Assembly (NCBI RefSeq): GCF_004519295.1
Contig: NZ_SOZH01000002.1
Coordinates: 62,001 to 126,000, forward strand
DNA length: 64,000 nucleotides
DNA from: Cellulosimicrobium funkei
Lineage (GTDB): Bacteria; Actinomycetota; Actinomycetes; Actinomycetales; Cellulomonadaceae
Direction: 5' to 3'
Part shown: piece by piece, positions 29,554 to 54,877 of the stretch
Position numbering within the stretch: the stretch's first letter is position 1
Layout: every line of letters starts with the position of its first letter
Translations under genes and position numbers: made by a program
The notes under the pieces: generated by a model
Database searches by the model: none
Told to the model about the DNA's origin: nothing
Seen by the model: the letters and a program-made list of their open reading frames with translations, nothing else

Positions 29554-30600
29554 ATGGCGGAGCGGTTGGTGGCGGTCGTCGGCTACGCCGGCGCGGAGCT
29601 CCTGGACATCGCGTGCGTGACCTCGACGCTCGTCCTCGCGAACCGTGTGGGCGCCGCGCCGCTCTACCGGGTGGTGCTGCTGACCCCGGGCGGGCGACCC
29701 GTCGCGTGCGACTCGGGCCTCACGCTCGCGAGCCACGGCTCCCTCCAGCGGTGGGTCGAGCCGGTCGACACGGTCGTCGTGACCGGAGGGCTCGGCCACG
29801 AGGAGGCCGGTGCCGACCCGCTCGTCGTCGCGCACGTGCGCCGGGTGGCCGCCCTGAGTCGCAGGGTCGCGTCGGTCTGCACGGGCGCGACCGTCCTCGC
29901 GGCGACGGGTCTCCTCGACGGGCGTCGTGCCACCACGCACTGGCGCTACGCCGACCGGCTCGCGCAGGAGTACCCCGCCGTCCGCGTCGACCCGGCGCCC
30001 ATCTACGTGCGCGACGACAACGTCTACACGTCGGCGGGCGTGACGAGCGCGCTCGACCTCACGCTCGCGCTGGTCGAGGAGGACAACGGTCCGGAGCTCG
30101 CCCGCAGGGTGGCCCGCGCGCTCGTGACGTACCTCCAGCGTCCGGGGAACCAGGCCCAGATGAGCGTCTTCACGGCGGCCCCTCAGGTACGGGACGCATG
30201 CGTCCGGGCCGTGGTCGACCTCGTCGCCGCGCGGCTCGACGGAGACCTCTCGCTCCCCGCCCTCGCCGCCCACGCGGGCGTGAGCCAGCGCCAGCTCACG
30301 CGCCTGTTCGTCCGGCACCTCGGCCGCACGCCGGCGCGGTACGTCCGGCGAGCCCGGACCGAGGCGGCGGCCCACCTGCTCGCGTCGACCGACCGCCCGG
30401 TCACCACCGTCGCCCGCGAGTGCGGGCTGAGGTCCGCGGAGGCGCTGCGGCAGGCGTTCGCCGCGGAGTACGGCCTCGCGCCCTCGCAGTACCGGGCCGC
30501 GCACCGGCGTGCCGGGCGCCTCGCCCCGCCTGGCGGGACCGGTCCGGGAGCCGCCGGGCTCCGCGGCGCGCGCGGCGAGCAGGAGCGGCTGCCGACGTAG
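29554..30600 (+). CDS. GlxA-type transcriptional regulator (DJ-1/PfpI plus AraC HTH)
   Basis: 348 residues. Residues about 5-170 form a DJ-1/PfpI-like domain (VAVVGYAGAELLDIACVTSTL, VASVCTGATVLAATGLLDGRRATTHW with the nucleophile-elbow Cys, VYTSAGVTSALDL). Residues about 220-325 hold the double helix-turn-helix of AraC regulators (LAAHAGVSQRQLTRLFVRHLGRTPARYVRRAR, then VARECGLRSAEALRQAFAAEYGLAPSQYR). It binds DNA and probably senses a small metabolite. Its likely targets are itself and the divergent membrane protein. The ligand is unknown. Confidence 0.9.
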   Translation: MAERLVAVVGYAGAELLDIACVTSTLVLANRVGAAPLYRVVLLTPGGRPVACDSGLTLASHGSLQRWVEPVDTVVVTGGLGHEEAGADPLVVAHVRRVAALSRRVASVCTGATVLAATGLLDGRRATTHWRYADRLAQEYPAVRVDPAPIYVRDDNVYTSAGVTSALDLTLALVEEDNGPELARRVARALVTYLQRPGNQAQMSVFTAAPQVRDACVRAVVDLVAARLDGDLSLPALAAHAGVSQRQLTRLFVRHLGRTPARYVRRARTEAAAHLLASTDRPVTTVARECGLRSAEALRQAFAAEYGLAPSQYRAAHRRAGRLAPPGGTGPGAAGLRGARGEQERLPT

Positions 30601-30603
30601 GGA

Positions 30604-30636
30604 ACCCGCGCACGGCCCACCGGGCCCGTCGCGGGT
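30604..30636. terminator. Hairpin between convergent genes
   Basis: ACCCGCG at 30604-30610 pairs with CGCGGGT at 30630-30636, with further internal pairing, in the 44-base gap between the GlxA-type gene and the GH65 gene. Confidence 0.5.
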
Positions 30637-30644
30637 ACGTCCAC

Positions 30645-32966
30645 CTACGAGGTGGCGAAGAGCGGCGCGCGGCCGGGCGGCTGCGCGGGCGGCGGGTCCT
30701 GGATCCCGGCGAGCAGGGGCCGCTCGAAGACCGCGTGCTCGGGCGTGAGCTCGAACGGCTCGTCGCCGTGCACGACCCGCAGCCGCTCGCCGGACTCGAG
30801 GCGGTACGTGACGCCGTCGGGCCGGACCTCGACGCGCGCCCGGGCGTCGCCGTGGTGGACGGCGAGCGCGAGCCGCGTGAGCCGGGACGGGAGCCGGGGG
30901 GCGAGGCGGAGCCCGTCGTCGTCGTGCCGCAGCCCCACGATGCCCGTGACGACGGCGGTCCAGGCGCCCGCGAGCGACGCGACGTGCAGCCCGCCGTCGG
31001 TCGAGCCGCGCAGGTCGCACAGGTCGAGGAGCGCGCACTCGCGCGCGTAGTCGTACGCGAGGTCGACGTAGCCGATCTCCGCGGCGACGACCGCCTGCAC
31101 GGGCGCCGAGAGCGACGAGTCGCGGACGGTCAGCGGCTCGTAGTAGTCGAAGTCGCGGCGGCGCTGCTCGGGCGTGAACTCCTCGGGCGCGGCGTGCAGG
31201 GCGAGCACGAGGTCGGCCTGCTTGACGACCTGCCGCCGGTACAGCTCGACGTAGTGCACGTGGTCGTCGAGCGGGAACCGCGCGGTGCCCCGCGACTCGA
31301 AGTCCCAGGGGGCGTGCCGCGTGAAGTCCTGCGACTGCTCCGTGACGCCGAGCTCCGCGTCGTACGGGACGACCATCCGGTCCGCCGCACGCCGCCACCC
31401 CGCGCGCTCGTCCGGGGTCACGTCCAGCCGCGCCGCCTGCTCCGGGAACCGCTCGCACAGCTCGTCGGCCGCGCGCAGGTTCTTGCGCGCCATGAGGTTC
31501 GTGTACGTGTTGTTGTCCACGACGGCGGTGTACTCGTCGGGCCCGGTCACGCCGTCGATGCGGAAGCCGTCGGCCGTGTGGTGGCCGCGCCCGGCCCACA
31601 GCCGCGCGGTCTGCACCACGAGGTCGACGACGACGTCCCGGGCGAGCTCGTCGTCGTGCGTGGCGGCGACGTGCCGCACGGCGGCGAGCGCGACGGCCGA
31701 CGAGACGTGGAACGCGGCGGTGCTCGCGGGCCAGTAGCCCGACGACTCCCGACCGCTGATCGTGCGCCACGGGAACGCCGCGCCGGGCAGGCCCAGCTCG
31801 GCGGCCCGCTCGCACGCGTGGGGGAGGGTGGCGTGCCGCCAGCGCAGGTGCGCGGCCGCGGCGTCGGGCAGCACGTGGTCCAGCACGGGGAGCACGAACG
31901 TGTCCGAGTCCCAGAAGGCGTGGCCCGCGTAGCCGGTGCCCGTGAGGCCCTTGGCCCGCACGCCCACGGCCTCGACCCGCGCCGACGCCTGGACCACCTG
32001 GAACAGGCTGTGCCGCAGGGCCTGCTGCATCTCGTCGTCACCGTCGAGCTCGACGTCGCCCCGGTCCCAGACCGCGGCGAGGGCGTCGGCCTGCTCACGC
32101 TCGAGCGCGTCCCAGCCCGCGTCGACGGCCGCGGCGAGCACGGTGTGCGCGTGCGCGGGGAGCGCGTCGGCATCCGCGCCGCCCGCGTACGCGGCGAGGA
32201 CGACGACCTCCAGCCACTCGTCGGCGCGCAGGTCGACGGTGAGGACCGCGGCGCCGCCGCGGTGGTGCCAGCGCGGGCGGACGCCGTCCGCGGCGTCGAC
32301 GAGGTGCGCGGTCTCGGCCGCGACGCCGCGCTCCGAGCGCACGGTGCGCTGGCGCACCGACGACCCCTCGGCGTCGTGCCGGCACGAGACGGTGACCAGC
32401 CCGGGCGCCTCGCGGCCCGGGTCCTGCCCGCCGTGCGCGCAGCCGGGGACCGGGCGCAGGGTGACGGTGACGTCGTCGTGCGCGAGCACGCGCCAGCGCG
32501 ACGCGACGACCTCGCGGCGCGAGAGCGGCACGAGCCGCTCGTTGTGCAGCGTGACGGTCCCGCCCGACGGCGCGGTCCAGCGCAGCTCGCGCCGCAGCAC
32601 GCCCCGGCGCAGGTCGAGCACGCGCTCGTGCGCCTCGACCGTCCCGTCGGGACCCGCGGGGTCGGCGGTCCGGACGTCGACCGGCTCCCCGTCCACGGAC
32701 CAGCCGAGCCGCCACGCGTCGACGACCGGCACGAGGCGCTCCTCGACCTCGGGGTAGGCGTACGCGCGTTCCGCGTAGGTCTGCTCGAACTCTTCGTGCA
32801 CGGAGGCGACGAGGGTCGAGGGGTCGTCGTCGGGGTCCGCCTCGTCGAGCGTGCCGCGGACGCCGACGTACCCGTTGGCGAGGGACAGGAGGGACGCGGC
32901 CGTGGCCGGGTCGTCGACGTCGAGGGCCGACTCCCGGACGGACCACGCGGGGAGGTCGCGAGTCAC
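30645..32966 (-). CDS. Family 65 glycoside phosphorylase/hydrolase
   Basis: 773 residues from a GTG with GGAG upstream; the open frame extends 345 bases further but is unsupported there. The length matches GH65 (750-790). The catalytic acid is the Glu of GVTGPDEYTAVVDNNTYTN (about residue 478). Other family blocks: GYVGVRGTLDEADPDD near the N-terminus, GLTGTGYAGHAFWDSDTFVLPVL and FAWRT-like segments. Members phosphorolyse alpha-linked disaccharides such as maltose, trehalose, kojibiose or nigerose, releasing beta-glucose 1-phosphate. No beta-phosphoglucomutase lies beside it, which leaves the disaccharide open. Cytoplasmic. Confidence 0.88.
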   Translation of the reverse strand: MTRDLPAWSVRESALDVDDPATAASLLSLANGYVGVRGTLDEADPDDDPSTLVASVHEEFEQTYAERAYAYPEVEERLVPVVDAWRLGWSVDGEPVDVRTADPAGPDGTVEAHERVLDLRRGVLRRELRWTAPSGGTVTLHNERLVPLSRREVVASRWRVLAHDDVTVTLRPVPGCAHGGQDPGREAPGLVTVSCRHDAEGSSVRQRTVRSERGVAAETAHLVDAADGVRPRWHHRGGAAVLTVDLRADEWLEVVVLAAYAGGADADALPAHAHTVLAAAVDAGWDALEREQADALAAVWDRGDVELDGDDEMQQALRHSLFQVVQASARVEAVGVRAKGLTGTGYAGHAFWDSDTFVLPVLDHVLPDAAAAHLRWRHATLPHACERAAELGLPGAAFPWRTISGRESSGYWPASTAAFHVSSAVALAAVRHVAATHDDELARDVVVDLVVQTARLWAGRGHHTADGFRIDGVTGPDEYTAVVDNNTYTNLMARKNLRAADELCERFPEQAARLDVTPDERAGWRRAADRMVVPYDAELGVTEQSQDFTRHAPWDFESRGTARFPLDDHVHYVELYRRQVVKQADLVLALHAAPEEFTPEQRRRDFDYYEPLTVRDSSLSAPVQAVVAAEIGYVDLAYDYARECALLDLCDLRGSTDGGLHVASLAGAWTAVVTGIVGLRHDDDGLRLAPRLPSRLTRLALAVHHGDARARVEVRPDGVTYRLESGERLRVVHGDEPFELTPEHAVFERPLLAGIQDPPPAQPPGRAPLFATS

Positions 32967-33502
32967 GCGGTCACTCCACCACGACGCCGTGTCGCACACC
33001 CGTCCGGGGCGTGCTCGAGCCCCATCCAGGGCCGCTCCGGAGACAAGTGTCGATCGGCCGTGGACTTTTGCTTGTTGTCGACACAACTTTCGCCTACCTG
33101 TTGACATCCATGCACTGACTGCGGTGTCATGAACCTCGTTGCCCCTGGAACCGACCAGGGGGCCGGACGTCGGCGCAGGGGAGCCCGTCGTCCGGACCGA
33201 CAGCCGGACGGTACGCACCGACGCGTACCCCGGCGGGGCCACGACGGCCCTGGACCTCGCCCCACGGCCGGTCTCCCACCGGCCCGGGTCGAGCCCCGCA
33301 CGACCGAGCAACCTCTCGACCCTCTGCGACCGCGGGACACCCCCGCACCACCCAGTCCTGCTGCTCAGAGTCCCCCCGCACCACCTCGGGGAGCCTCCGC
33401 GCGCCCGAGCGCGCCGGCACGCGGGGCGGCGACCGCCGTCCCGCCGGTCCGGCGCGCCACGGACCGCCCGGACGACCCCGTACGCCCGGAAGGAGTCCCC
33501 CC
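32967..33502. promoter_or_regulatory. Long divergent intergenic region upstream of GH65 and the copper-oxidase operon
   Basis: 536 bases without a supportable gene. It contains a locally AT-richer stretch at 33060-33115, with a TTGACA at 33101-33106 that could be a + strand -35 box, an eight-base palindrome TGTCGACA near 33077, and a small hairpin (CCCCTGG 33142-33148 with CCAGGGG 33155-33161). The region probably carries both divergent promoters and a leader of more than 300 bases for the copper-oxidase operon. Exact start sites cannot be fixed by eye. Confidence 0.4.
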
Positions 33503-34651
33503 ATGCCCGACCCGACGACCGAGACGGCGCCGAGGCCGCTCTCGAGGCGGGCCCTGCTCGCCGGGGCCGGCGTCGTCGCTGCCAGCCCCGCCGCCGCGCT
33601 CCTGCTCGGAGCCGGCGGCAGCGTCGCCGCGGCGCCCCCCGCCGCCGCCGCGACGACCGTCACCGCAGCCACCGGCGTCCGCAAGATCACCATGTACGCC
33701 GAGCGCATCTCCGACACCCTCGTCGGCTACGGGCTCGAGCGCGGCAAGGCGACCGTCCCCGGGCCCATCCTCGAGATGTGGGAGGGCGAGACCCTCGAGA
33801 TCACGCTCGTCAACACGACGGACAAGCGCCTGTCGATCCACCCGCACGGCGTGAACTACGACGTCAACAGCGACGGCAGCACGTTCAACAACTCGTTCAA
33901 CGAGCCGGGCGAGACGCGGACGTACACGTGGTCGACGGTCAAGATGGCGCGCGACCGCGGCATCTGGATGCCCGGCAGCGCGGGGTACTGGCACTACCAC
34001 GACCACGCGTGGGGCGAGCACGGGACGCAGGGCCTCGCCGCGGGCCTCTACGGCGCGCTCGTCGTGCGCCGGGTCGGCGACGTGCTGCCGCAGAAGCAGT
34101 TCACGATGGTCTTCAACGACATGACCATCAACAACAAGGTCGCGCCGGACACGCCGATGTTCGAGGCGAAGCTCGGCGAGCGCGTCGAGTTCATCTGCAT
34201 CGGCCACGGCAACCAGCTCCACACCTTCCACCTCCACGCGCACCGCTGGGCGAACAACCGCACCGGCCTGCTCGCGGACCAGTACGACCCGAGCCAGGTC
34301 GTCGACAACCGGGACCTCAACCCGGGCGACGCGTTCGGGTTCCAGGTCGTCGCCGGGCTCGGTGTCGGACCCGGTGCGTGGATGTACCACTGCCACGTCC
34401 AGTTCCACTCCGACGGCGGCATGGCGGGCATCTTCCTCGTGCGCAACGCCGACGGCTCGATGCCGCCGGGCGCCCAGGAGTCGATCGACCGCTTCCAGGG
34501 TCACGGCAGCCACACCATGTCGGCCCCGTCCGGGGCCGCGCCGTCCGGCGCCGCCGCGACGACGAGCGCCCCGGCCACCGCCCCCGGCGGTCCGGCCGGC
34601 GGTGGCTCCGGGCCGGCCGTCGTCGACCTCACGGGCCACGCCGGCCACTGA
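33503..34651 (+). CDS. Two-domain multicopper oxidase (small laccase-like)
   Basis: 382 residues; the ATG follows AAGGAG. The N-terminus RPLSRRALLAGAG is a twin-arginine-type leader ending in an Ala-rich stretch, suggesting export of the folded, copper-loaded protein. All copper-ligand blocks are visible: HPHG near residue 113, HYHDH near 164, HTFHLH near 240 and HCHVQFH near 296, whose Cys and flanking His make the type 1/trinuclear bridge. Two cupredoxin domains fit the small laccase class, which works as a trimer, oxidising a donor and reducing O2 to water. A Ser/Pro/Gly-rich tail follows. First gene of a three-gene secreted redox cluster. Confidence 0.9.
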   Translation: MPDPTTETAPRPLSRRALLAGAGVVAASPAAALLLGAGGSVAAAPPAAAATTVTAATGVRKITMYAERISDTLVGYGLERGKATVPGPILEMWEGETLEITLVNTTDKRLSIHPHGVNYDVNSDGSTFNNSFNEPGETRTYTWSTVKMARDRGIWMPGSAGYWHYHDHAWGEHGTQGLAAGLYGALVVRRVGDVLPQKQFTMVFNDMTINNKVAPDTPMFEAKLGERVEFICIGHGNQLHTFHLHAHRWANNRTGLLADQYDPSQVVDNRDLNPGDAFGFQVVAGLGVGPGAWMYHCHVQFHSDGGMAGIFLVRNADGSMPPGAQESIDRFQGHGSHTMSAPSGAAPSGAAATTSAPATAPGGPAGGGSGPAVVDLTGHAGH

Positions 34652-34668
34652 CCGTCCGCTGGTGAGGT

Positions 34669-34691
34669 GGGGCGGGCCGCCGGCCCGTCCC
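34669..34691 (+). terminator. Hairpin after the multicopper oxidase gene
   Basis: GGGGCGGGCC at 34669-34678 pairs with GGCCCGTCCC at 34682-34691 (9 of 10). With no T-run it may attenuate rather than end transcription into the next gene. Confidence 0.45.
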
Positions 34692-34756
34692 GCACCCGGC
34701 AGGACCCGCTCCCGGCCCGTCCGGGAGCGTCGCACCGATGACGAAGGAGTTGGAGA

Positions 34757-37700
34757 GTGCTTTCCAGACGATCGACACCCCCCACGAGGGGGCGCTCCCG
34801 ACCGGGGGCACTACGGGCCCTGACCGTCGGCCTGACGGGCGTCGCGCTCGTCGCGAGCGCCGCCGTCCTCCCGGCGGCGGCCCAGACCGGCGCCACCGCA
34901 CCGACCACCGCGGTCAGCGCGGGCGGGTCCCTCGCGGCGGGGTCCGTCGCCGCCGCGCCGGCCGCCGCAGCCGCGCCCGTGCGCGTGCTCGTGTTCCACG
35001 GCGCGCCCGACGAGCAGACCGACCCCGTCGTCGACGCGACGGCGGCGCTCACCGAGATCGGGGCCGCCAACGGCTTCGAGGTCGAGGCGACGTCCGACCC
35101 GGAGATGATCAGCGCGGCGACGCTCGGCGAGTACCGCGGCGTCGTCATGCTCTCCGCGGAGGGCATCGAGCTGAGCGGCGAGCAGGAGGCCGCGCTCCAG
35201 GCGTACATCAACGGCGGCGGCGGCTTCCTCGGCGTGCGCGACGCCGCGCGCTCGCAGGAGGCCTCGAAGTGGTTCGAGGGCCTCGTCGGCGCCCGGATCA
35301 AGGGCGCGACCATGACGGCGGAGAAGGTCGCCGAGGCGACCGGCACCGGCCGCAGCCCGGCCGCCGAGACGCCGGCCAAGGCCGTCGACGGCGACCCCAA
35401 CACCAAGTGGCTGACGTTCGCCCGCACGGGCCAGCTCACGCTGCGCATGGAGCAGCCCGTCGCGGTGGTGAAGTACGGCATCACGTCGGCGAACGACTCC
35501 GCGGGCCGCGACCCGAAGAACTGGAAGCTCCAGGGCTCGACCGACGGGCAGACGTGGGTCGACCTCGACACGCGCGCCGACGAGGACTTCCCGCAGCGCT
35601 TCCAGCCGCGCACGTTCGACGTCGCGAACGAGACCGCGTACGGCTGGTACCGGCTGGACGTCACCGCGAACTCCGGCGACGCCGAGGTCCAGCTCGCGGA
35701 GCTCTCGATCTACGGCCCCGACTCCGTCGAGCAGCCCGACCCGGAGATCCCGCTCGAGGAGCGCACGGTCGACCTGGTCGACCGCCAGCACCCCGCGACG
35801 GCGGACCTCCCGCTCACGTGGGACCGCGAGGACCGGTGGCTCGAATGGGCCGACGACCCGACCGGTGACGTGCACACGGTCGCGACGCTCGAGCCCGGCC
35901 CCGACGCCGGCCCGACGACCAACCCGTTCCAGCCCGTCTCGTGGTGCCGCGACTACGACGGCGGCCGGTCGTTCTTCACCGGCATGGGCGGCACGCCCGA
36001 GAGCTGGGCGGACGCGACGTTCCGCGAGCACCTGCTCGGTGCGCTCCAGTGGACGACGGGCGTGGTGCGCGGCGACTGCCAGGCGACCATCGCGTCGAAC
36101 TACAAGGCCGAGCGCCTGTCCCAGGTGAACACGGCCGGCACGCTCGACCAGAACGGCGAGCAGCACGGTCTGACGATCGCGCCCGACGGCACGGTCTTCT
36201 ACATCGGCCGCGGCGCCTGCCCGACCGGCCCGATCGTCCCGTGGAGCGACCCGAACGTGGGCCTCGGCTGCGGCACGATCCACCAGTGGGACCCGGAGAC
36301 GGGTGAGGCGAAGCTGCTCACGACGCTCGACGTCATGGGCAACCGCGGCAGCGGCGACGAGCTCGTGAAGAACGAGGAGGGGCTGCTCGGCATCGTGCCC
36401 GACCCCGACTTCGCGACCAACCACTGGCTCTACGTGTACTGGATGCCGCACGAGAACATCGACCGCGAGCGTCGCGTCGGCTACCGGACCGTCTCGCGGT
36501 TCACCTACGACCCCGAGACGCCGACGATCGACCAGAGCACGCGCGTCGACCTGCTCGAGTGGGAGACGCAGATCCACAGCTGCTGCCACGCGGGCGGCGG
36601 CATGGCGTTCGACAGCGAGGGCAACCTCTACATCGGCTCGGGCGACAACAACTCGTCCGGCGGGTCGAACGGGTACTCCGGCAACAACTGGACGCAGGAG
36701 TTCGCGGGCATCAGCTTCCAGGACGCGCGCCGCACGTCGGGCAACACGAACGACCTCAACGGCAAGATCCTGCGGATCCACCCCGAGGACGACGGCACGT
36801 ACACGATCCCGGACGACAACCTGTTCCCGGTGGGCGAGTACCCCGCGGACAAGACGCGCCCGGAGATCTACGTCATGGGCGTGCGCAACATCTCGCGCCT
36901 CCAGATCGACCCCGACACCGACTGGCTGACGGCGGCCTGGGTGGGCCCGGACGCCGGCAGCCCGAGCCCCGAGCTCGGCCCGGCGAAGTACGAGACGGCG
37001 ACGATCATCACGTCCGCGGGCAACCAGGGCTGGCCGTACTGCATGGGCAACAAGCAGCCGTACCGCGACCGGAGCAACGAGGACGCGAGCGTCCTCACCG
37101 GCTGGTACGACTGCGACAACCCGAAGAACACGTCGCCCCGCAACACGGGCCTCGTGGACCTCCCGCCGGTACGGAACAACATGATCTGGTACTCGCCCTC
37201 GGGCGGCGGGCCGGTCTTCCCGGACCGCGGCAACGGCATCCCGACGTACGAGGACGACGAGGCGACCTACACCATCCCGTGGCTGCGGGGCGGCGGCCAG
37301 GCCGTCATGTCCGGTCCGACGTACCGCCAGTCGCAGGTCGACCCCGAGTCCGACGTCGCGTGGCCGTCGTACTGGGAGGGCAAGTGGTTCATCGGCGACC
37401 AGTCGAACTCGAACAACCGCGTCGCGGTGACGGTCGACCCGGAGAACCTGGACGCCCCCGTGTTCATGGAGGACCTCCGCCAGATCATCCCGGGCGGCCG
37501 CGGTGACGGGCTGCTCCAGAGCTGGATGGACGCGAAGTTCGGTCCGGACGGCGCGCTGTACCTGGTCGACTACGCGGGCGGCTTCTTCAGCCTCGACCCG
37601 AACCAGAAGCTCATGCGGATCACGTACCAGGGCGGGGCCCCGACCCCGGCCCCGGCCGCGTCCGCGACGAGCATCCAGGGCGACCCGCTCACGGTGCAGT

Positions 37701-38758
37701 TCACGGGTGCGCGGTCCGGCGGCGTCTCCTACCTGTGGGAGTTCGGCGACGGCAAGACCTCGCGCCAGGCCAACCCGAAGCACAAGTACCCCCGCATCGG
37801 GAACTACGAGGCCAAGCTCACCGTCACGTACGCGGACGGCTCGACGGCCACCGTCACGACCGACGGCTCGCCGTCGTGCACCCTGCCCGACGAGCGCGAG
37901 ACCGTGTTCTTCGGCGACGTCGACTCCACGGTCGAGAACCTCGACCTGGGCGCCTGCACGATGAACGACCTGTTCCAGGACGAGAAGGAGTGGCGCACCC
38001 ACGCCCGGTTCCTGGCGCACGTCGAGTCGGTCGCGAAGAGCCTGTACGACGACAGCCGCATCGACGAGCGCGAGCGTGCTCGCCTCGTCGACGCCGCGGC
38101 GCGGTCCCAGATCGGCGTGGACCCGGGCGGGTACCGCACGATCTTCGACGGCACGCAGGAGTCGCTGTACGACTGGTTCCAGGCACCGAGCGGCAAGTTC
38201 ACGCTCGAGCCGGGCGGTTCGCTGAAGTCGAGCGGCGGCCTCGGGATGCTCTGGTACGCGGGCGAGGAGCTCGGGGACTTCTCCGTGAAGCTCCTGTACC
38301 GCGACGTCTCCGAGGGCGACCACTACGCCAACACGGGCGTGTTCACCCGGTTCCCGAACCCGAACGACCCGGGCGACGTGCCGTGCGCGGCCAACCAGTC
38401 GCCCGCGTGGGTCGCGATCTCGTGCGGTCACGAGATCCAGATCTACGACGGTCCGACGGGCGAGCCGCAGAAGACCGGCTCGGTCTACAACTTCGACCCG
38501 CTCGGCCTGAACACCGGCGGCGAGAAGCCGAAGGGCGAGTGGAACGAGTACGAGATCCGGGTGGTCGGCCAGCAGTACACGATCATCCGCAACGGCGTCG
38601 TCATCAACGAGTGGGAGAACACCCCGGGACAGCAGTCGTCCCGTGCCGGTGACCCGCCGACCGACCTGCGCCAGTTCGACAGCGGGTTCATCGGGCTCCA
38701 GAACCACGGGAACGCGGACCTCATCGAGTTCCGCGACATCCGGGTCGCGGACCTGTAG
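34757..38758 (+). CDS. Secreted ThuA / discoidin / sugar dehydrogenase / PKD / DUF1080 protein
   Basis: 1333 residues from a GTG with AAGGAG upstream. Signal peptide to about residue 43. ThuA-like glutamine-amidotransferase fold at about 73-185 (VRVLVFHGAPDEQ, GGGGFLGVRDAAR), resumed at 335-445; an F5/8-type-C (discoidin) carbohydrate-binding domain at about 190-320 interrupts it. Residues 447-958 are a glucose/sorbosone-dehydrogenase-type propeller (GLTIAPDGTVFYIGRG, EGLLGIVPDPDF, FGPDGALYLVDY). PKD domain at 968-1038 (YLWEFGDGKTSRQANPKHKY), a ~80-residue unnamed domain at 1040-1120 shared with the next gene, and DUF1080 (3-keto-disaccharide hydrolase-like) at 1125-1333. It probably oxidises or hydrolyses sugars at the cell surface. 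Confidence 0.85.
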   Translation: MLSRRSTPPTRGRSRPGALRALTVGLTGVALVASAAVLPAAAQTGATAPTTAVSAGGSLAAGSVAAAPAAAAAPVRVLVFHGAPDEQTDPVVDATAALTEIGAANGFEVEATSDPEMISAATLGEYRGVVMLSAEGIELSGEQEAALQAYINGGGGFLGVRDAARSQEASKWFEGLVGARIKGATMTAEKVAEATGTGRSPAAETPAKAVDGDPNTKWLTFARTGQLTLRMEQPVAVVKYGITSANDSAGRDPKNWKLQGSTDGQTWVDLDTRADEDFPQRFQPRTFDVANETAYGWYRLDVTANSGDAEVQLAELSIYGPDSVEQPDPEIPLEERTVDLVDRQHPATADLPLTWDREDRWLEWADDPTGDVHTVATLEPGPDAGPTTNPFQPVSWCRDYDGGRSFFTGMGGTPESWADATFREHLLGALQWTTGVVRGDCQATIASNYKAERLSQVNTAGTLDQNGEQHGLTIAPDGTVFYIGRGACPTGPIVPWSDPNVGLGCGTIHQWDPETGEAKLLTTLDVMGNRGSGDELVKNEEGLLGIVPDPDFATNHWLYVYWMPHENIDRERRVGYRTVSRFTYDPETPTIDQSTRVDLLEWETQIHSCCHAGGGMAFDSEGNLYIGSGDNNSSGGSNGYSGNNWTQEFAGISFQDARRTSGNTNDLNGKILRIHPEDDGTYTIPDDNLFPVGEYPADKTRPEIYVMGVRNISRLQIDPDTDWLTAAWVGPDAGSPSPELGPAKYETATIITSAGNQGWPYCMGNKQPYRDRSNEDASVLTGWYDCDNPKNTSPRNTGLVDLPPVRNNMIWYSPSGGGPVFPDRGNGIPTYEDDEATYTIPWLRGGGQAVMSGPTYRQSQVDPESDVAWPSYWEGKWFIGDQSNSNNRVAVTVDPENLDAPVFMEDLRQIIPGGRGDGLLQSWMDAKFGPDGALYLVDYAGGFFSLDPNQKLMRITYQGGAPTPAPAASATSIQGDPLTVQFTGARSGGVSYLWEFGDGKTSRQANPKHKYPRIGNYEAKLTVTYADGSTATVTTDGSPSCTLPDERETVFFGDVDSTVENLDLGACTMNDLFQDEKEWRTHARFLAHVESVAKSLYDDSRIDERERARLVDAAARSQIGVDPGGYRTIFDGTQESLYDWFQAPSGKFTLEPGGSLKSSGGLGMLWYAGEELGDFSVKLLYRDVSEGDHYANTGVFTRFPNPNDPGDVPCAANQSPAWVAISCGHEIQIYDGPTGEPQKTGSVYNFDPLGLNTGGEKPKGEWNEYEIRVVGQQYTIIRNGVVINEWENTPGQQSSRAGDPPTDLRQFDSGFIGLQNHGNADLIEFRDIRVADL

Positions 38759-38764
38759 CACCGC

Positions 38765-38799
38765 CGGGCGGGGGCGGCCGGCCAGGCCGTCCCCGCCCG
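38765..38799 (+). terminator. Hairpin between the dehydrogenase and cupredoxin genes
   Basis: Arms 38765-38778 and 38786-38799 pair at 13 of 14 positions around a seven-base loop, directly after the stop. A partial terminator is likely, because the next gene follows within 110 bases on the same strand. Confidence 0.55.
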
Positions 38800-38866
38800 T
38801 ACCCGGCAGAGCCCCCAGAACCACCCCCAGAACCTTCCCGAGACACCCCCCGAGGAGTGCACCCTC

Positions 38867-41344
38867 ATGGAACGACGTACCAGTCCCGGCGGCGTCCGCC
38901 GCCGCGGCGCGCGGCGGTTCCTCGCCGCCACGGTCGCCGGGCTCACCGCGACGACGGTCCTCACCGTCGCGCCGGCGTCCGCGTCCCCCGCAGGGACGGC
39001 AGCGCCGTCGTCCGTCTTCTCCGTCGCCGACGCCACCGTCGCGGCCGAGCAGGTCCTCACGTGGACCGCGGACAACAGCGTGACCGACTACAAGGCCTTC
39101 CCCGCCACGGCCGAGGCGGGTCCCGCCACGATCGTGTTCGAGAACAGCATGGCGACCGGCAGCACGTTCGGCATGAGCCACACGCTCACGTTCGACACGT
39201 CGTCGCCCGGCTACAACCACGACGTGAACCTCAACATCCTCGCGAGCCCGTTCGACGCGAACGGCGGGCGGCACGAGGCCCAGGTCACCTTCACCCCGGG
39301 CAAGTACCGCTACTTCTGCGCGATCCCCGGGCACGGCGAGATGTGGGGCGAGCTCGTCGTGACCGACGGCGGCACCGGCGGCGAGGACACCACGGCCCCG
39401 TCCGTGACCGCGCTCGTCACGGGCGAGCAGGACGGCGACGGCGCCTACGTGGGCGGCGCGACCGTGACGCTCGACGCGACCGACGACGACTCCGGCGTGG
39501 CCGGGGTCGAGTACGACCTCGACGGCGCGGGCTGGCAGGCCTACACGGAGCCGTTCGTCGTCGACGCCGTCGGCACGCACACGCTCCAGTTCCGCGCGAC
39601 CGACGCCGCGGGCAACACGTCCGAGGCGCAGTCCGCGACCTTCACCGTCGTCGAGGGCGACGTCGAGGAGGACACGACCGCCCCGATCGTCGAGCCCATG
39701 GTCATGGGGCAGCAGGACGAGGACGGCGCCTACGTCGGCACCGCCGCGTTCATGCTCCACGCCACGGACGAGGGCTCGGGCGTCGCGTCCGTCGAGTACC
39801 AGGTCGACGGCGGCGCGTGGCTCCCGTACACGACCACGGTGCCGTTCACCGAGGTCGGCGAGCACACCGTGTCGTTCCGGGCGACCGACGTCGCGGGCAA
39901 CGTGTCCGAGGTCGGCTCCGTGACGTTCACCGTCGTCGCCGGCGGCGGCGAGGACGACACGACCGCCCCGACCGTCACCGCCGAGGTCACCGGCACGCAG
40001 GACGGCAACGGCGCGTTCGTCGGGTCCGCCACGGCGACGCTCACCGCGACGGACGACGCGTCCGGCGTGGAGAGCGTCGAGTACGACCTCGACGGCGCCG
40101 GCTGGCAGCCGTACACCGAGCCGGTCGTCGTCGACGAGCCCGGCGAGCACACGCTCGTCTACCGGGCCACCGACGTCGCGGGCAACGTCTCCGAGGAGAC
40201 CGTCACCGAGTTCGTCGTCGTCGCGGAGGCCGAGGAGGACACCACGGCGCCCGTCGTCGCGACCGAGCTCAGCGGCCAGCAGGACGAGGACGGCGCCTAC
40301 GTCGGCTCCGCGTCCGTGCTGCTCACCGCCACGGACGACGGCTCGGGCGTCGCGACCGTCGAGTACGACCTCGACGGTGCGGGCTGGACCGAGTACACCG
40401 GGGCCGTCGTCGTCGACGAGCCCGGCCGCCACACGCTCGCCTACCGCGCGACCGACGTCGCGGGGAACGTCAGCGAGCCGGCGACCGTCACGTTCGACGT
40501 CGTCGCGGGCCAGGGCGGCGACACCGTCGCCCCGACCGTCGACCACCGCGTCATGGGGGGCGACAAAAACGAGGCCGGCGAGTACCTCGACAACGTGTTC
40601 GTGCGCCTCCTCGCGAAGGACGCCGACTCCGGCGTCGCGTCGGTCGAGTACCAGCTCGACGGCGGCGAGTGGACCCCGTACGCCAAGCAGATCTCCGTGC
40701 GGACCCCCGGGTCGCACACGGTGACCTACCGCGCGACGGACGTCGCGGGCAACGTGTCCGCCCCGAAGACGGTCACGTTCGTCATCGCGGGCGGCGAGGA
40801 GCCCGGCGGCGACACCGACGGCCCCGTCGTCACGGCGGGCATCAGCGGCAGCCGCACGCGCGACGGCGACTTCGTCGCGAGCGCGCGCGTCACGCTCACG
40901 GCGGTCGACGAGGAGTCGGGCGTGGACCGCATCGAGTTCCAGGCCAACGACGGCGCGTGGCAGCGCTACGCGGCCCCGGTCGCGTTCGCGGCCGACGGCC
41001 AGCACGTGGTCCGCTACCGCGCGGTCGACGGCGTCGGGAACGTCACGAGCGGCGAGGTGACCTTCACGGTCCTCAAGCTCGTGCGCGACCGCTGCGTCGG
41101 CTCGGACATCCGTCCGACGGTGATCATCGACGGTCACGACAGCACGGTGCAGAACTACGACGACGGCACCGGCTGCACGGTCAACGACCACGTCGCCGAG
41201 AACGACGAGTACGCGACGCACCGCGAGTTCGTCGACCACGTGAGCCTCGTGACCGAGGACCTCGTCCTCGACGGCGTCCTCGACGACGCCGAGCGGGACC
41301 TCGTCATCACGGCGGCCCAGCTGTCCGACATCGGTCGCCGCTGA
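38867..41344 (+). CDS. Secreted cupredoxin with six OmpL47/Ig-like repeats
   Basis: 825 residues; ATG with GAGGAG upstream. Signal peptide cleaved near ASASPAG (about 40). Residues 62-167 are a plastocyanin/azurin-like copper domain: a His in GMSHTLTF and the C-terminal ligand loop YFCAIPGHGEMWG, with Cys151, His156 and Met159. Six ~95-residue repeats follow, beginning near nucleotides 39392, 39677, 39959, 40241, 40523 and 40814 (pattern 'TTAP.V...., GSGVA.VEY.LDG..W..Y..P, HTL.YRATDVAGN'). The last ~80 residues (DSTVQNY ... TVNDHVAE ... LSDIGRR) repeat the unnamed domain of the preceding protein. It probably shuttles electrons on the surface between the dehydrogenase and the copper oxidase. 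Confidence 0.85.
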   Translation: MERRTSPGGVRRRGARRFLAATVAGLTATTVLTVAPASASPAGTAAPSSVFSVADATVAAEQVLTWTADNSVTDYKAFPATAEAGPATIVFENSMATGSTFGMSHTLTFDTSSPGYNHDVNLNILASPFDANGGRHEAQVTFTPGKYRYFCAIPGHGEMWGELVVTDGGTGGEDTTAPSVTALVTGEQDGDGAYVGGATVTLDATDDDSGVAGVEYDLDGAGWQAYTEPFVVDAVGTHTLQFRATDAAGNTSEAQSATFTVVEGDVEEDTTAPIVEPMVMGQQDEDGAYVGTAAFMLHATDEGSGVASVEYQVDGGAWLPYTTTVPFTEVGEHTVSFRATDVAGNVSEVGSVTFTVVAGGGEDDTTAPTVTAEVTGTQDGNGAFVGSATATLTATDDASGVESVEYDLDGAGWQPYTEPVVVDEPGEHTLVYRATDVAGNVSEETVTEFVVVAEAEEDTTAPVVATELSGQQDEDGAYVGSASVLLTATDDGSGVATVEYDLDGAGWTEYTGAVVVDEPGRHTLAYRATDVAGNVSEPATVTFDVVAGQGGDTVAPTVDHRVMGGDKNEAGEYLDNVFVRLLAKDADSGVASVEYQLDGGEWTPYAKQISVRTPGSHTVTYRATDVAGNVSAPKTVTFVIAGGEEPGGDTDGPVVTAGISGSRTRDGDFVASARVTLTAVDEESGVDRIEFQANDGAWQRYAAPVAFAADGQHVVRYRAVDGVGNVTSGEVTFTVLKLVRDRCVGSDIRPTVIIDGHDSTVQNYDDGTGCTVNDHVAENDEYATHREFVDHVSLVTEDLVLDGVLDDAERDLVITAAQLSDIGRR

Positions 41345-41378
41345 CAGCACCCGTCCCACCAGCAGTCCGACCGGCGAA

Positions 41379-41415
41379 GGCCCGGACCCGCTCCCTCCAG
41401 GAGCGGGCCCGGGCC
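41379..41415. terminator. Strong bidirectional hairpin
   Basis: Arms 41379-41394 and 41400-41415 pair at 15 of 16 positions with loop CTCCA, between the cupredoxin gene and the convergent membrane protein. The 324-base gap also holds an 18-bp tandem repeat and a type 2 palindrome, and no gene. Confidence 0.8.
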
Positions 41416-41448
41416 GTCGTCGTCCCCGGGCCCCCTGGGCCCGACGGC

Positions 41449-41502
41449 CACCCCCGGTCCGCCGGACACCCCCGGCCCGCCGGACACCCCCGGTGCGCCG
41501 AG
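41449..41502. repeat. Three 18-bp tandem repeats
   Basis: Units start at 41449, 41467 and 41485 (CACCCCCGGTCCGCCGGA and variants). The third runs into the left arm of the palindrome that follows. Confidence 0.8.
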
Positions 41503-41553
41503 CACGACGTTGCTGTCGCCATGGGAGGGATGCCGACGACAAGGTCGTGCTCG
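41499..41553. repeat. Dispersed palindrome, type 2, copy 1
   Basis: Arms 41499-41518 and 41534-41553 (17 of 20 pair) with a 15-base spacer; arm core CGAGCACGAC followed by TTG. It resembles the type 1 elements in size, spacer length and the GAGCACG core, but differs in the inner half. Confidence 0.75.
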
Positions 41554-41668
41554 ACCGCGCGCAGGGTCGTGCTCGGCCTGCCCCGCGGGGAGGGGCGCCC
41601 GGGAGGGGCGTGCCGCGCCGTCAGGTTGTGGGCGGGACGGCCAGGCTGCCCGACGCCGCGCGGCCGAG

Positions 41669-42304
41669 TCAGGCCGGCGGCTCGCCGTACACCGGGCGGA
41701 CGAAGGCCAGGACGATCCCGAGCCCGCCGCGCTGGGCGAGGCGCGCGCGATCCTCCGGGTGGTCGAGCAGGTGCCGCAGGACGCGCGCGACCGCCTCGGG
41801 GTCCGTCACGACGACGGGGTCGGGGTCCGGTCCGTGCGCGGGCCGGCCCTGCAGCAGGTCCTCGCCCTCCGCGTGGCGTGACCGCGCGCCGTCGTGCAGC
41901 TCGACCCGGAGCGACGGGCGCCCCTCGCCCGGGACGACGTGGACGCGCGCGACGTCGTCCCACCGCACGACGACCCGGACCACCTCAGCGCCCCCCACCG
42001 GCAGCTCGACCCCCTGCGGCCGCAGCACGACCGCGTGCTTCGACGGCCCGCGCACGTACGCCAGCAGCCCGCCGCCGAAGGCGAGGGCGACGATGCCGAT
42101 CAGGGCGGCCGCGAACCCCTCGTCGTTCCGCAGGAGCCACACCGCGAACGCCACCGCGCCACCGCACAGCGCGAGCAGGATCAGCAGCACCGCGAGGTAG
42201 TCGACGACGGGCGTCAGGCGCTCGCGACCGCGCACGCCGCCCCGCACGGCGGTCCACACCATCGTCGGCCGGTACGGCTGCCGGGGTCGGCGGCTGCTGC
42301 TCAC
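41669..42304 (-). CDS. Hypothetical membrane protein with PH-like domain
   Basis: About 211 residues from a GTG at 42304; no clear ribosome-binding site is seen and the ATG at 42262 is an alternative. Two hydrophobic segments (VVDYLAVLLILLALCGGAVAFAV and GFAAALIGIVALAFGGGLLAYV, each about 20 residues) are followed by a soluble part resembling a small bacterial PH domain (VVLRPQGVELPVGGAEVVRVVVRWDDVARVHV). Unknown role. The neighbour on the same strand is a SHOCT-domain membrane protein. Confidence 0.62.
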   Translation of the reverse strand: MSSSRRPRQPYRPTMVWTAVRGGVRGRERLTPVVDYLAVLLILLALCGGAVAFAVWLLRNDEGFAAALIGIVALAFGGGLLAYVRGPSKHAVVLRPQGVELPVGGAEVVRVVVRWDDVARVHVVPGEGRPSLRVELHDGARSRHAEGEDLLQGRPAHGPDPDPVVVTDPEAVARVLRHLLDHPEDRARLAQRGGLGIVLAFVRPVYGEPPA

Positions 42305-45599: not shown

Positions 45600-45702
45600 G
45601 CCGGCAACCTCACTGCTAGCCGTCGCAACCAATGGTGTGAAGGCGAGACACGACCAATAGGGCGCAGCCGCAATCGGGTCATGAAAGCGAAGCCCTCTTA
45701 CG

Positions 45703-45745
45703 GTGTCGTCGGCGACACTCGGATGGTCCGGTGCGTCGGTACTAT
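45703..45745 (+). promoter_or_regulatory. Candidate promoter region of the defence operon
   Basis: A small perfect hairpin (GTGTCG 45703-45708, loop TCGG, CGACAC 45713-45718) is followed by TACTAT at 45740-45745, a plausible -10 box, about 60 bases before the helicase GTG. No convincing -35 box. The remaining bases from 45600 hold nothing else that I can support. Confidence 0.35.
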
Positions 45746-45803
45746 GCCCGTGGCTTGGCGACGATGCGGAGCACGATGGAACCAACTGTCCGCGGAGGTG
45801 CTT

Positions 45804-48800
45804 GTGGGAAACGACGGCGACGCGATCGATGGCCTGCGCAAGCACCTTGTGGACGCCAACACCGTCTCATCGCTCTCAGAGTCGTTCTCGATCTTCGCTT
45901 TCGAGGCCTTCGAAGACTCGCTCACCGACGCCGACATGAACCTTCTTCTGTGGCGCGGGGCGCTCGACGAGCCCCTGAATGGCGTCGAGTCCGAGCACGT
46001 GCTGCGCTCACGCCTCGACCAGCACCATGTCGCGCAGCGCTGTCTGACCTGGGCTCAGCAGCACGTGGAAGTGCGCGAGCTCAAGCGGAGAACGCGCGAG
46101 ACCTGGGTGCAGGTTGATGGCCCAACCCCGTTCGCGCTCACCGGTGCAGGGTTCGACGCTGAGAGCATGGGCGTCGTCGCCGCCGAGGGCGTGCACCTGT
46201 TCCAGGAGCACGTCGGCGACCAGGCGGTCGCACCGATCGCCAAGCAGATGGCCCAACTCTGGGGAGACCGCACCATCGGTGTACCTGTCACCGACGAGTT
46301 CCTCGACCGCCTGCGCGAGTTGGTCCGGGACAACGACCCCGAGTCGGTGTACCTGCGGATCATCACGGCCCTGTTCGAGGACTTCCTCAACGACTCAGCG
46401 GACGACACCCGCCGGCGCGGCCTGACTGGCTTCTACGACACGCAGGTGTGGAAGAAGCTCTACAAGTTCCAGCGCGACGGTGTCCTGGGCGCGATCCAGA
46501 AGCTCGAGCGCCACAACGGCTGCATCATCGCCGACAGCGTCGGCCTCGGTAAGACGTTCGAGGCCCTGGCGGTCATCAAGTACTACGAGCTGCGCAACGA
46601 CCGCGTCCTCGTCCTCGCCCCGAAGCGGCTGCGGGAGAACTGGACGATCTACCGGAGCAACGACGTGCGCAACCCTCTGGTCGACGACCGGTTCAACTAC
46701 GACGTCCTGAACCACACCGACCTGAGCCGCGGCAACGGGTTCTCCGGAGACATCGACCTTGCCCACATCAACTGGGGCAACTACGACCTCGTCGTCATCG
46801 ACGAGTCGCACAACTTCCGCAACAACCCGCAACTGCAGCGCGACACCAAGACGCGCTACCAGAAGCTGATGGAGGACGTCTTCAAGGCCGGCGTGAAGAC
46901 CAAGGTCCTCATGCTGTCGGCCACCCCGGTGAACACCCGCCTGGCAGACCTGAAGAACCAGGTGCTGTTTGCGACCGAGGGCGACGACGACGCGTTAGCT
47001 GGCGACGGGATCAAGAGCATCGAGTCCACGCTGCGCCAGGCCCAGACGCGGTTCCGTGCCTGGCAGGACACTCCGGAGTCTCAGCGTTCCGCGCAGACAC
47101 TGGTAAGCCACCTCGGCCTCGACTACATCCGTCTGCTCGACCTGGTCACGATCGCCAGGTCGCGCAAGCACATCGAGAAGTACTACGGCACCTCGGACGT
47201 TGGGAAGTTCCCCGACCGCCGTCAGCCGGTGAACATCAAGTCGGCGATCGACGCCCGCGACCAGCTCATGCCGCTGGCGGACATCAATCGCAGGATCCTG
47301 GCGCTCAACCTCGCCTCCTATAAGCCGATGTCGTACGTCCTTCCCGGCCATCGCGACAGGTACGCCCAGCTCTACGACCACAAGATCGCCGGCTCCGGGG
47401 AGCGCATCTTCCGCCAGGAACACCGCGATAACAACGTCGTCCACCTCCTGCGGGTCAACCTGCTCAAGCGCCTCGAGTCCTCGGTGAACTCCATGGCGAT
47501 GACCGTCGGCAAGATGCTCCACACGGTCCAGACGACCATCGACAAGCTCGACGCCTACGAGGCCGACCATTCCCGCGCCATCTCGCTCGCAGAGATCGAG
47601 GGTCGCGACTGGGACGACCTGAACTTCGACGACCCGATGTTCGAGGACGCCGTCGTCGGCTCGAACGTGAAGGTCCTCCTGCCGGACATCGACCGCCCCC
47701 GCTGGCGCCAGGAGCTCGAAGAGGACCGCGACGCACTCCGCGAGCTTCTCGACGAGATGTCGGTCGTCACCCCTGCCCGCGACCTCAAGCTCGCCAAGCT
47801 CAAGGCCTATCTGCGCGAGAAGATCGAGAACCCTTACAACACCGGCAACCGCAAGGCCCTCGTCTTCACGGCCTTCTCCGACACCGCGGAGTACCTGTAC
47901 GAGCACATCGCCCCGTGGGCGGCCAAGGAGTTCGGCATCCACGTCGCGCTCGTGACGGGTTCGACGGCCAAGGCCACGCTCAAGATGCCGCGAACGGACA
48001 TGCTCGGCGTCCTGACAGCGTTCTCGCCATTGTCGAAGTCTGGGGACCCGGCCGCCGACCAGATCGATCTCGTCATCGCCACGGATGCGATCTCCGAGGG
48101 CCAGAACCTCCAGGACTGCGACACTGTCGTCAACTACGACATCCACTGGAACCCGGTTCGGATCGTCCAGCGCTTCGGCCGCGTGGACCGGCTCGGCACC
48201 CAGAACACCAGCGTGCAGCTCGTGAACTTCTGGCCGGACCTCGACCTGGAGTCGTACATCAACCTCGAGAAGCGTGTCTCGGGTCGCATGGCGCTGCTCG
48301 ACGTGTCCGCTACTGGCGAGGAGAACCTTCTTACCGAGGCCGAGCAGAAGGCGATGAACGACCTCGAGTACCGGCGCAAACAGCTGGAGCAGATGCAGAC
48401 CGCCGCCCCGACGATGGAGGATCTCGCCGGCGGGCTGAGCATCACCGATCTCACCCTCTCCGACTTCCGCATGGACGCTGCCGCCCGCGACGCCAACGCT
48501 CTCGCCGAACTGGCACAGTGGCCCCAGGCCCTCCATGGAGTCGCGCGGTTCGACGCCACCCTTGACGCCGAGGGCCTCGGCCCAGGGGCCGTGTTCTTGC
48601 TCCGCGTCCGGGACGAGGAGATCCCGCTTCCGCCGGCCTATCCGCTCGCCCCCTTCTTGCTGCTCTACGTCACCGACGACGGCACTGTCGCCCACGCGGT
48701 CGACGAGCCCAAGCTCGCCCTCGACGTCTTGCGGCGACACGGCATGGACGCGCCCTCAGTCGATGCCGAAGCGGTCGCGAGCTTTGCCAAGCGGACACGA

Positions 48801-49723: not shown

Positions 49724-49742
49724 CAGAACCGAGAGCAGGATC

Positions 49743-54872: not shown

Positions 54873-54877
54873 CGGCC

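Follow-up and report, generated by a model that had tools for sequence, protein, structure and literature searches.

What does a small laccase do beside a sugar dehydrogenase and a cupredoxin? The question is raised by a 64,000-nucleotide stretch of the Cellulosimicrobium funkei genome (contig NZ_SOZH01000002.1, positions 62,001 to 126,000), called here the window, in which three consecutive open reading frames on one strand, as seen from their list and translations, encode within 33503-41344 a small laccase (P1), a protein with a propeller of the glucose/sorbosone dehydrogenase type (P2, its propeller called GSDH below) and a cupredoxin-like protein (P3). An initial annotation had drawn from them a path of electrons from sugar to dehydrogenase, cupredoxin, oxidase and oxygen at the cell surface, an interpretation that our analysis partly supports. 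That the three genes encode one extracellular set for the oxidation of sugars or glycosides, with electrons running from P2 to P3, to P1 and finally to O2, is the reading that we hold, tentatively and at slightly under an even chance; within it we infer the substrate, the position C3, the use of pyrroloquinoline quinone (PQQ), every electron-transfer step and the role of a module shared by P2 and P3. The main interest of the locus is its link to the classical Streptomyces small laccase, SLAC, which was absent from the initial annotation.

Do the three genes belong together? We searched 150 genomes of the family and 394 of the class, two samples that overlap in at least one genome (G000). In the family, the laccase occurs in 40 of the 150 genomes (as a partial match in G142) and the P2-type GSDH in 36, and all 36 GSDH matches start at most 3159 bases from the laccase match. 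The order laccase-P2-P3 on one strand was found in 20 of 20 family loci, a biased rate as these loci had been preselected for the pair of modules described below; the GH65 gene that precedes the trio in the window was matched in 3 of the 20. Four family genomes have the laccase without GSDH: G146, where a 4.4-kb contig bears ThuA beside the laccase (locus L161), and G023, G043 and G095, to which we return. The class was scored on the best candidates per genome (up to 6 for the laccase, 3 for GSDH and 14 for the module), copy counts being lower bounds. It contains the laccase (E≤1e-40) in 49 of 394 genomes and a GSDH orthologue (E≤1e-130) in 48, spread over 9 genera and 5 families. All 48 GSDH matches start at most 3954 bases from a laccase match, and a P3-type cupredoxin (E≤1e-12) lies within 10 kb of 47 of them; its identity falls to 46-48% in G213 and G228. 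The 48th match is in G313, where GSDH stands at a contig end and the cupredoxin on a separate 3.3-kb contig. Linkage in related genomes, on which the initial annotation had staked its proposal, is thus what we observe, and the three genes form a well supported conserved set.

Does the set extend to the classical enzyme? The laccase of the Streptomyces-group locus L135 matches the PDB entry 3cg8, which we take to be SLAC (SCO6712) of Streptomyces coelicolor, at E 1.3e-175. A scan of genome contigs with the SLAC sequence gave at least 595 stretches with the pattern, 564 of them confirmed, from which the best 80 (83-97% identical) were kept; 79 of these are titled Streptomyces and none S. coelicolor. 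In 78 of these best 80 SLAC-like loci the laccase gene is divergent from a ThuA-GSDH gene followed by a gene for a cupredoxin-module-DUF1080 protein. The two exceptions are L245, where the contig runs out past ThuA, and L175, from a record titled Kitasatospora aureofaciens. Going by gene numbers, the partners of SLAC itself would be SCO6710 and SCO6711. These data suggest that the natural task of a small laccase, in Streptomyces too, may be to pass the electrons of an oxidised sugar on to oxygen. The wider proposal that actinobacterial small laccases, SLAC included, are the O2-reducing end of a secreted copper chain driving the C3-oxidation and cleavage of glycosides, with the module helping assembly, appears doubtful to us in this full form. 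In the best-ranked, mostly open-access literature we found no link between a small laccase and a neighbouring sugar dehydrogenase and cupredoxin, which is not proof of novelty. Among the open-access papers searched, SCO6712 is named in four, none of which names SCO6713 or SCO6714; SCO6710 is named in one, and SCO6711 and SCO6709 in none.

The Streptomyces loci also share a conserved 25-base element upstream of the laccase gene (median position 9878), which all 80 loci (L171-L250) match at 20 or more of the 25 positions; a k-mer count left out 8 of the 80 loci, and element matching took them all. In four loci read by eye the element sits between the laccase and dehydrogenase genes, and it is matched at 25 of 25 positions in L175, which has no partner genes. 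It is possibly a shared promoter or operator. In the window, a tentative and weak resemblance to it was noticed at 33085..33109 on the + strand, with 16 of 25 matches, which is no better than shuffled windows give (best 15-16 of 25).

P1 (33503..34651, + strand, 382 amino acids, ATG start) begins with a twin-arginine translocation (Tat)-like N-terminus and matches the Pfam families Cu-oxidase_2 (E 1.6e-22) and Cu-oxidase_3 (E 1e-12). Its best PDB match is the small laccase 3t9w, presumably that of Amycolatopsis (E 1.5e-127, amino acids 49-326), followed by 3cg8 (E 1.9e-112, amino acids 13-352). With two cupredoxin domains and a full-length match to SLAC, P1 fits the pattern of the two-domain type B oxidases. 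The copper-ligand residues are all present (His113, 115, 164, 166, 240, 243, 245 and 296, Cys297, His298, His302 and Met307), each kept in at least 134 of 140 homologues; we take them to correspond to the ligands of the type 1 (T1) copper of SLAC, in domain 2, and of its trinuclear centre. The call of a small laccase-like oxidase is therefore confirmed. In six loci with tandem laccases (L130, L154, L155, L156, L159 and L160) one copy lacks the T1 ligand His302, replaced by Tyr or Phe, and in the degenerate copies of L159 and L160 Cys297, Met307, His243 and His245 are changed too. Such a copy might be an inactive partner subunit.

P2 (34757..38758, + strand, 1333 amino acids, GTG start) is a mosaic. 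Pfam recognises ThuA (E 1.2e-45), the 3keto-disac_hyd family or DUF1080 (PF06439, E 1.2e-27, 97.6 bits for a cut-off of 26.8), GSDH (E 6e-21), PKD_4 (E 1.1e-13) and F5_F8_type_C (PF00754, E 3.4e-10). On the + strand these are laid out as the first half of ThuA (34979..35341, approximate bounds), an inserted F5/8 type C domain, discoidin-like and possibly carbohydrate-binding (35360..35668, amino acids 202-304), the second half of ThuA (35750..36055, amino acids 332-433), the GSDH propeller (36077..37636), the PKD domain (37649..37861), the first copy of the module and the DUF1080 domain (38129..38746). The propeller, the putative carbohydrate-binding domain and DUF1080 had been proposed from the start and are all recovered; ThuA and the module of about 80 residues had been missed. 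The interruption of ThuA by F5/8C (34979-36055) is seen both as two Pfam stretches and as two tblastn halves flanking the insert; in the Streptomyces loci ThuA is matched in a single piece.

Is the propeller of P2 that of a PQQ enzyme? Its AlphaFold2 (AF2) model has a mean predicted local distance difference test (pLDDT) score of 90.9 and was compared with known structures by VIA-align. The Thermus structure 2ism comes first (Z 36.3, root mean square deviation (rmsd) 2.3, 324 residues aligned), then the PQQ-bound 3das (Z 33.9, rmsd 2.5, 320 aligned), Asd (2g8s, Z 32.9) and the soluble glucose dehydrogenase sGDH (1cq1, Z 28.8); the enzymes of family AA12 score below this group (TrAA12, Z 24.8; CcPDH, Z 23.6). 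The modelled domain is thus six-bladed, with the sGDH/Asd fold of the PQQ sugar dehydrogenases. In a profile alignment His611, Arg710 and Asn711 of P2 line up with His144, Arg228 and Asn229 of sGDH, and 97% or more of 137 sequences keep them; the alignment ends at chain residue 289, the region of the C-terminal Arg/Lys that hold the PQQ carboxylates lying outside it. We take His144 of sGDH to be catalytic, and Arg228 and Asn229 to contact the quinone oxygens of PQQ. A Cys-Cys pair (Cys609-Cys610) directly precedes His611; all 124 sequences with at least 50% identity have it, as do 9 of the 13 that are more distant. In methanol dehydrogenase a disulfide between two adjacent cysteines lies over PQQ. 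The AA12 papers name the equivalent of the trio His611/Arg710/Asn711 (PMC6881789, PMC6881810). Besides P2, the same genome encodes four more GSDH-like proteins (loci L002-L005 on contigs C17, C1 and C13; open frames of 1245-1894 amino acids), which are 38-43% identical to P2 across the matched parts.

What chemistry would this enzyme perform? According to PMC9007349, a 3-ketotrehalose hydrolase belongs to the DUF1080 proteins, and the gene of another member, proposed to be a periplasmic 3'-ketolactose hydrolase, lies near that of a periplasmic lactose 3-dehydrogenase; the same source places endo-xanthanase/lichenase activity in the family too. Besides, PMC10628242 describes a 3-keto-glucoside beta-eliminase of Agrobacterium that bears the annotation of a sugar phosphate isomerase. 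In P2, GSDH is fused to DUF1080, and in L133 a single chain unites GSDH with the module and with an AP_endonuc_2 TIM barrel. These fusions favour, by analogy, a 3-oxidation of glycosides by the set. The 3-keto-sugar chemistry suggested at the outset is upheld to this extent: DUF1080 beside a sugar dehydrogenase points there, and an isomerase-like TIM barrel is found on further proteins that bear the module.

P3 (38867..41344, + strand, 825 amino acids, ATG start) opens with a plastocyanin-type domain (39002..39376, + strand) carrying His105, Cys151, His156 and Met159, and continues with six immunoglobulin (Ig)-like repeats of the OmpL47 type (39361..41067, + strand, six copies of 282 nucleotides, about 95 residues each), which the NCBIfam model barrel_OmpL47 (NF047446) matches at E 7.6e-150 in six stretches; the second copy of the module forms its C-terminus. 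The first domain matches auracyanin A at E 0.0027 and the Pfam family Copper-bind at E 7e-4, a score of 20.4 bits that is under the curated cut-off of 21.2; its relatives in L132 (21.8 bits) and L154 (26.7 bits) pass this cut-off. Because the four type-1 ligands His-Cys-His-Met are in the right order, as in 126 of 126 extracted homologues, and because of this homology, we name the domain cupredoxin-like in spite of the Copper-bind score. The E-values quoted for the other domains of P1, P2 and P3 are far below what chance would give.

Each of the three proteins has an N-terminal hydrophobic stretch, preceded in P1 by an arginine pair, and from these signal-like N-termini export of all three seems probable; the genes are indeed consecutive, as the initial annotation had it, and the export that it also claimed depends on these N-termini. 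It had further placed the cupredoxin on a stalk at the cell surface. The cupredoxin ligands and the six repeats stand; the surface finds no support, since a scan of P1-P3 revealed neither an LPxTG motif nor a lipobox, and nothing strongly hydrophobic past residue 62. We therefore dropped the idea of a surface stalk or anchor.

Which partner would take the electrons of P2? Three single chains (L112, L139 and L149) combine GSDH, two DUF1080 matches, a Copper-bind segment and the module, the segment scoring 25.3-27.1 bits when scanned alone (cut-off 21.2). They favour a transfer from GSDH to cupredoxin. In L154-L156, tandem laccases stand beside a cupredoxin-Ig protein with no GSDH in the stretch read, which favours a contact between cupredoxin and laccase. 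These last loci would equally suit another role for P3, that of a copper carrier or buffer loading the laccase in a copper-responsive locus, with sugar oxidation as a side partner. We consider this distinctly improbable: the His-Cys-His-Met set of P3, kept throughout the homologues, is that of an electron carrier, the fusion of the module and DUF1080 to the Streptomyces cupredoxin protein would be left unexplained, and a scan of the 80 Streptomyces loci for CsoR-like palindromes gave 20 matches, compared with 32 estimated from mononucleotide shuffles of 20 loci.

The electrons could also go elsewhere. A fungal PQQ pyranose dehydrogenase drives the action of lytic polysaccharide monooxygenases (LPMOs; PMC5960967), and LPMO_10 is found in 32 of the 49 laccase-bearing genomes, that of the window included; P2 might then feed LPMOs through P3, the laccase having a separate job. 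At E≤1e-10, however, LPMO_10 has no match in the other 17, all of which have the GSDH of the set, and the laccase is the constant neighbour. LPMOs therefore cannot be the general electron sink, and we rejected them as such; this explanation is very improbable.

The module that P2 and P3 have in common lies on the + strand at 37874..38116 in P2 (amino acids 1041-1120) and at 41090..41335 in P3 (amino acids 743-823), both copies being delimited by blastp of P2 against P3 and by profile match. They are homologous (E 2e-12, 41% identity) and share two cysteines. Modelled by AF2 from an alignment of 33 members, the module of 82 residues (pLDDT 94.0) combines a short beta hairpin with helices. Its identification with a known domain was tried and rejected, as Pfam, PDB sequence and fold searches gave no clear relative: the member of the window matches 0 Pfam families; among the 33 members the best match is Abhydrolase_10 at E 0.0005, 8 of 33 matching at E≤1 in a tally that gives no cut-off; the best PDB sequence is at E 0.093; and in fold searches Foldseek gave at best E 1.6 and VIA-align at best Z 4.1 (rmsd 3.1, 61 aligned), all rows being below Z 5.

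How is the module distributed? It occurs in 37 of the 150 family genomes (E≤0.001; weak in G015), mostly as two copies about 2.5-3.3 kb apart, which are the P2/P3 pair. Twenty further carriers in the family comprise 13 isomerase-like TIM barrels, 3 DUF1080 proteins, 3 GH127-like proteins and 1 ThuA-GSDH, assigned by Pfam for the TIM barrel of L041 and the GH127 of L058 and by similarity or reading for the rest. In the class, genomes of one genus (g78 of family f27; for example G323, L111-L119) have from at least 9 to at least 14 copies; there the copies ride on GSDH/ThuA proteins, peptidases and a sialidase-like protein. Among 47 carrier frames in 40 class loci that we chose by hand, 39 have a domain like those of P2 or P3 (GSDH, ThuA, DUF1080 or cupredoxin) and 8 do not; Pfam, run on four of these 8, gave an M14 peptidase (L115), a BNR/sialidase-like protein (L117), an S15 peptidase (L118) and no match for L150. 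In these hand-chosen loci the module is thus frequent on, and not exclusive to, 3-keto-glycoside-type chemistry. In the 20 f1 loci, and in the f27 and G177 pairs read, it is present on P2 as well as on P3 (the contig of L123 ends within P3, and the pair of G313 is split over contigs). Wherever the module and DUF1080 share one protein of the set, the module immediately precedes DUF1080, and the two have been shuffled together: they are on the GSDH protein in f1, f27 and f24 and on the cupredoxin protein in the Streptomyces group.

How has the set evolved? Of the loci read, those of f1, f27 and G177 (f36) have all three genes on one strand; in those of f24, f26 and G213/G228 (f36) the laccase gene runs divergently, so that adjacency is kept despite a change of orientation between families. 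Trees were built from 49 GSDH rows, with rows below 50% identity left out, and 56 laccase rows, the degenerate laccases of L159 (at 5842) and L160 (at 9734) being left out; statements on the laccase tree rest on part of it. The two trees share their main splits, with f1, f27 and G177 together (support 99/98 for GSDH and 100/99 for the laccase). A conflict between them by gene replacement was considered and not upheld, the main splits being compatible and the branch lengths differing. In both trees the locus of G177 (L120), which belongs to a different family, groups with 15 f1 rows inside the clade of the window (100/100 and 100/99), so that the set would seem to have moved between families as a unit. 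In the cupredoxin tree, which has 111 alignment columns only, the f24 rows group with 15 f1 rows (95/85), unlike in the other two.

How, then, would the set work? The propeller of P2 would act on a sugar or glycoside, plausibly oxidising its C3, with PQQ that most likely comes from the surroundings. The DUF1080 domain of P2 itself, perhaps with ThuA, would process the 3-keto product and break the glycosidic bond. Electrons would leave P2 via the type-1 copper of P3, and P1, receiving them either from P3 or by way of a small mediator common to both, would reduce O2 to water; the module may bring the enzymes together or onto a common partner.

A number of observations weigh against this scheme. 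The genomes counted above are related and do not represent independent events. In G023, G043 and G095 (L151-L153) the laccase has neither partner in the stretch read, and L175 keeps the laccase only, its partners being gone. Among 59 laccase places in the class, 51 are linked to GSDH and 8 have none within 10 kb: 6 are the tandem laccases of L154-L156, where the absence refers to the stretch read (L156 starts at a contig edge), and 2 are alone. The Copper-bind segment of L112 is not listed by a whole-protein Pfam scan at E≤0.001. As to the module, it is also borne by a peptidase, a sialidase-like protein and GH127; all 4 f24 loci have it on the GSDH protein only and all 5 Streptomyces-group loci tested on the cupredoxin protein only, and G213 and G228 have it on neither equivalent. 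A docking of P2 onto P3 through paired modules was therefore dropped as a general rule.

This scattering of the module over unrelated secreted enzymes, and its absence from one or both partners, would be expected if the three genes were simply co-located, sharing a regulation for the degradation of plant matter and acting in parallel with no electron transfer, the module being a generic appendage; the upstream element of the 80 Streptomyces loci would fit such plain co-regulation as well. We judge this quite unlikely, as it leaves aside the strict linkage, which persists over 5 families in spite of altered orientations, and the single chains that join GSDH to a cupredoxin segment.

The enzymes themselves raise further difficulties for the proposed scheme. 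We know of no characterised six-bladed PQQ enzyme that oxidises C3. PqqC and PqqE score over their cut-offs in the same 5 of the 49 laccase-bearing class genomes, and neither was found in the genome of the window, so that P2 would receive its cofactor from outside or use a different one. Neither E. coli nor the fungal hosts of AA12 enzymes can synthesise the PQQ that they use (PMC6881789, PMC6881810), which makes scavenged PQQ plausible for P2. On the side of the laccase, PMC13151041 describes one type B two-domain oxidase that is re-oxidised slowly by O2, and locates the T1 copper of this type in the central tunnel of the trimer; the docking of a protein donor is therefore less obvious. Such a site suits small donors, and SLAC oxidises phenols in vitro, being active on 12 of 23 substrates tested, phenolics included (PMC3918160). 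The laccase might thus oxidise plant phenols or humics to quinones and radicals, which the dehydrogenase would re-reduce, the cupredoxin being an auxiliary acceptor. The conserved linkage fits this quinone cycle too. It explains neither why a cupredoxin is kept near 47 of 48 GSDH genes, nor the proteins that unite GSDH and a cupredoxin segment in one chain, nor the laccase-cupredoxin loci devoid of GSDH, and it is in our opinion unlikely.

The surroundings of the trio in the window can be described briefly. The gaps between the genes of P1 and P2 and of P2 and P3 are 105 and 108 nucleotides, and GGAG precedes each of the three genes; a scan of 33100-41700 found no sigma-70 promoter, and no terminator-like site on the + strand. 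Upstream, at 29554-33098, are a regulator of the DJ-1/PfpI-AraC type and the GH65 family enzyme. Further away, 45681-59383 forms a block of lower guanine plus cytosine content (0.63-0.68 in 2-kb windows, as against 0.69-0.79 across most of the window) with defence genes inside: a SNF2-type helicase, the Mod (49677-51743) and Res (51744-54872) subunits of a type III restriction-modification system, and a TmtA-like protein (54878-59383, 1490 bits).

Why would such a set matter? PMC13151041 calls the physiology of two-domain multicopper oxidases poorly understood, and the conserved partners are therefore a concrete lead. Small laccases are popular biocatalysts, and their constant neighbours (48 of 48 GSDH genes in the class, 78 of the best 80 SLAC-like loci) offer a testable candidate for a natural electron donor. 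If the P2-P3-P1 chain is true, it would be an O2-linked route for the oxidative cleavage of sugars or glycosides outside the cell; DUF1080 and ThuA domains would thereby acquire an extracellular setting in these bacteria, and applications of laccases might draw on sugar as the source of electrons. The shared module, for its part, would count as a new family of domains borne by secreted enzymes.

How does the set compare with known systems? By sequence, copper-ligand residues included, P1 belongs with SLAC (SCO6712), EpoA, Ssl1 and the type B oxidases, and the SLAC loci resemble the window in that the same two kinds of partner gene adjoin the laccase in 78 of 80 close relatives (the best 80 of 564). 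SLAC differs in having been studied as an oxidase of phenols and lignin. With the soluble PQQ dehydrogenases (sGDH 1cq1, Asd 2g8s and the S. coelicolor Adh 3das) the P2 model shares the six-bladed fold, and the catalytic His and the Arg-Asn pair align; on the other hand the propeller of P2 is embedded between ThuA and DUF1080, has Cys-Cys-His at the catalytic His, and belongs to hosts most of which, among the genomes examined, have no PQQ synthesis genes. In this last respect the set resembles the fungal AA12 enzymes (CcPDH/CcSDH, TrAA12), secreted PQQ propellers whose hosts have no PQQ synthesis, CcPDH carrying fused redox and cellulose-binding domains (PMC6881789, PMC6881810 and PMC4133262). 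The electron sink of AA12 can be an LPMO (PMC5960967). The fold match of P2 to AA12 is nevertheless weaker than to the soluble dehydrogenases (Z 24.8 and 23.6), and the AA12 partner is a cytochrome b domain, here replaced by a blue-copper-like protein.

The closest parallel for the chemistry would be LacABC of Caulobacter and the beta-elimination of Agrobacterium, whose dehydrogenases, unlike P2, are presumably not GSDH propellers. In both, the 3-oxidation of a glycoside is followed by a cleavage due to a DUF1080 or isomerase-like protein (PMC9007349 and PMC10628242), a sequence of events which is here proposed for P2. Compared with these two systems, P2 joins the oxidiser and the hydrolase in one chain, and copper proteins are its neighbours.

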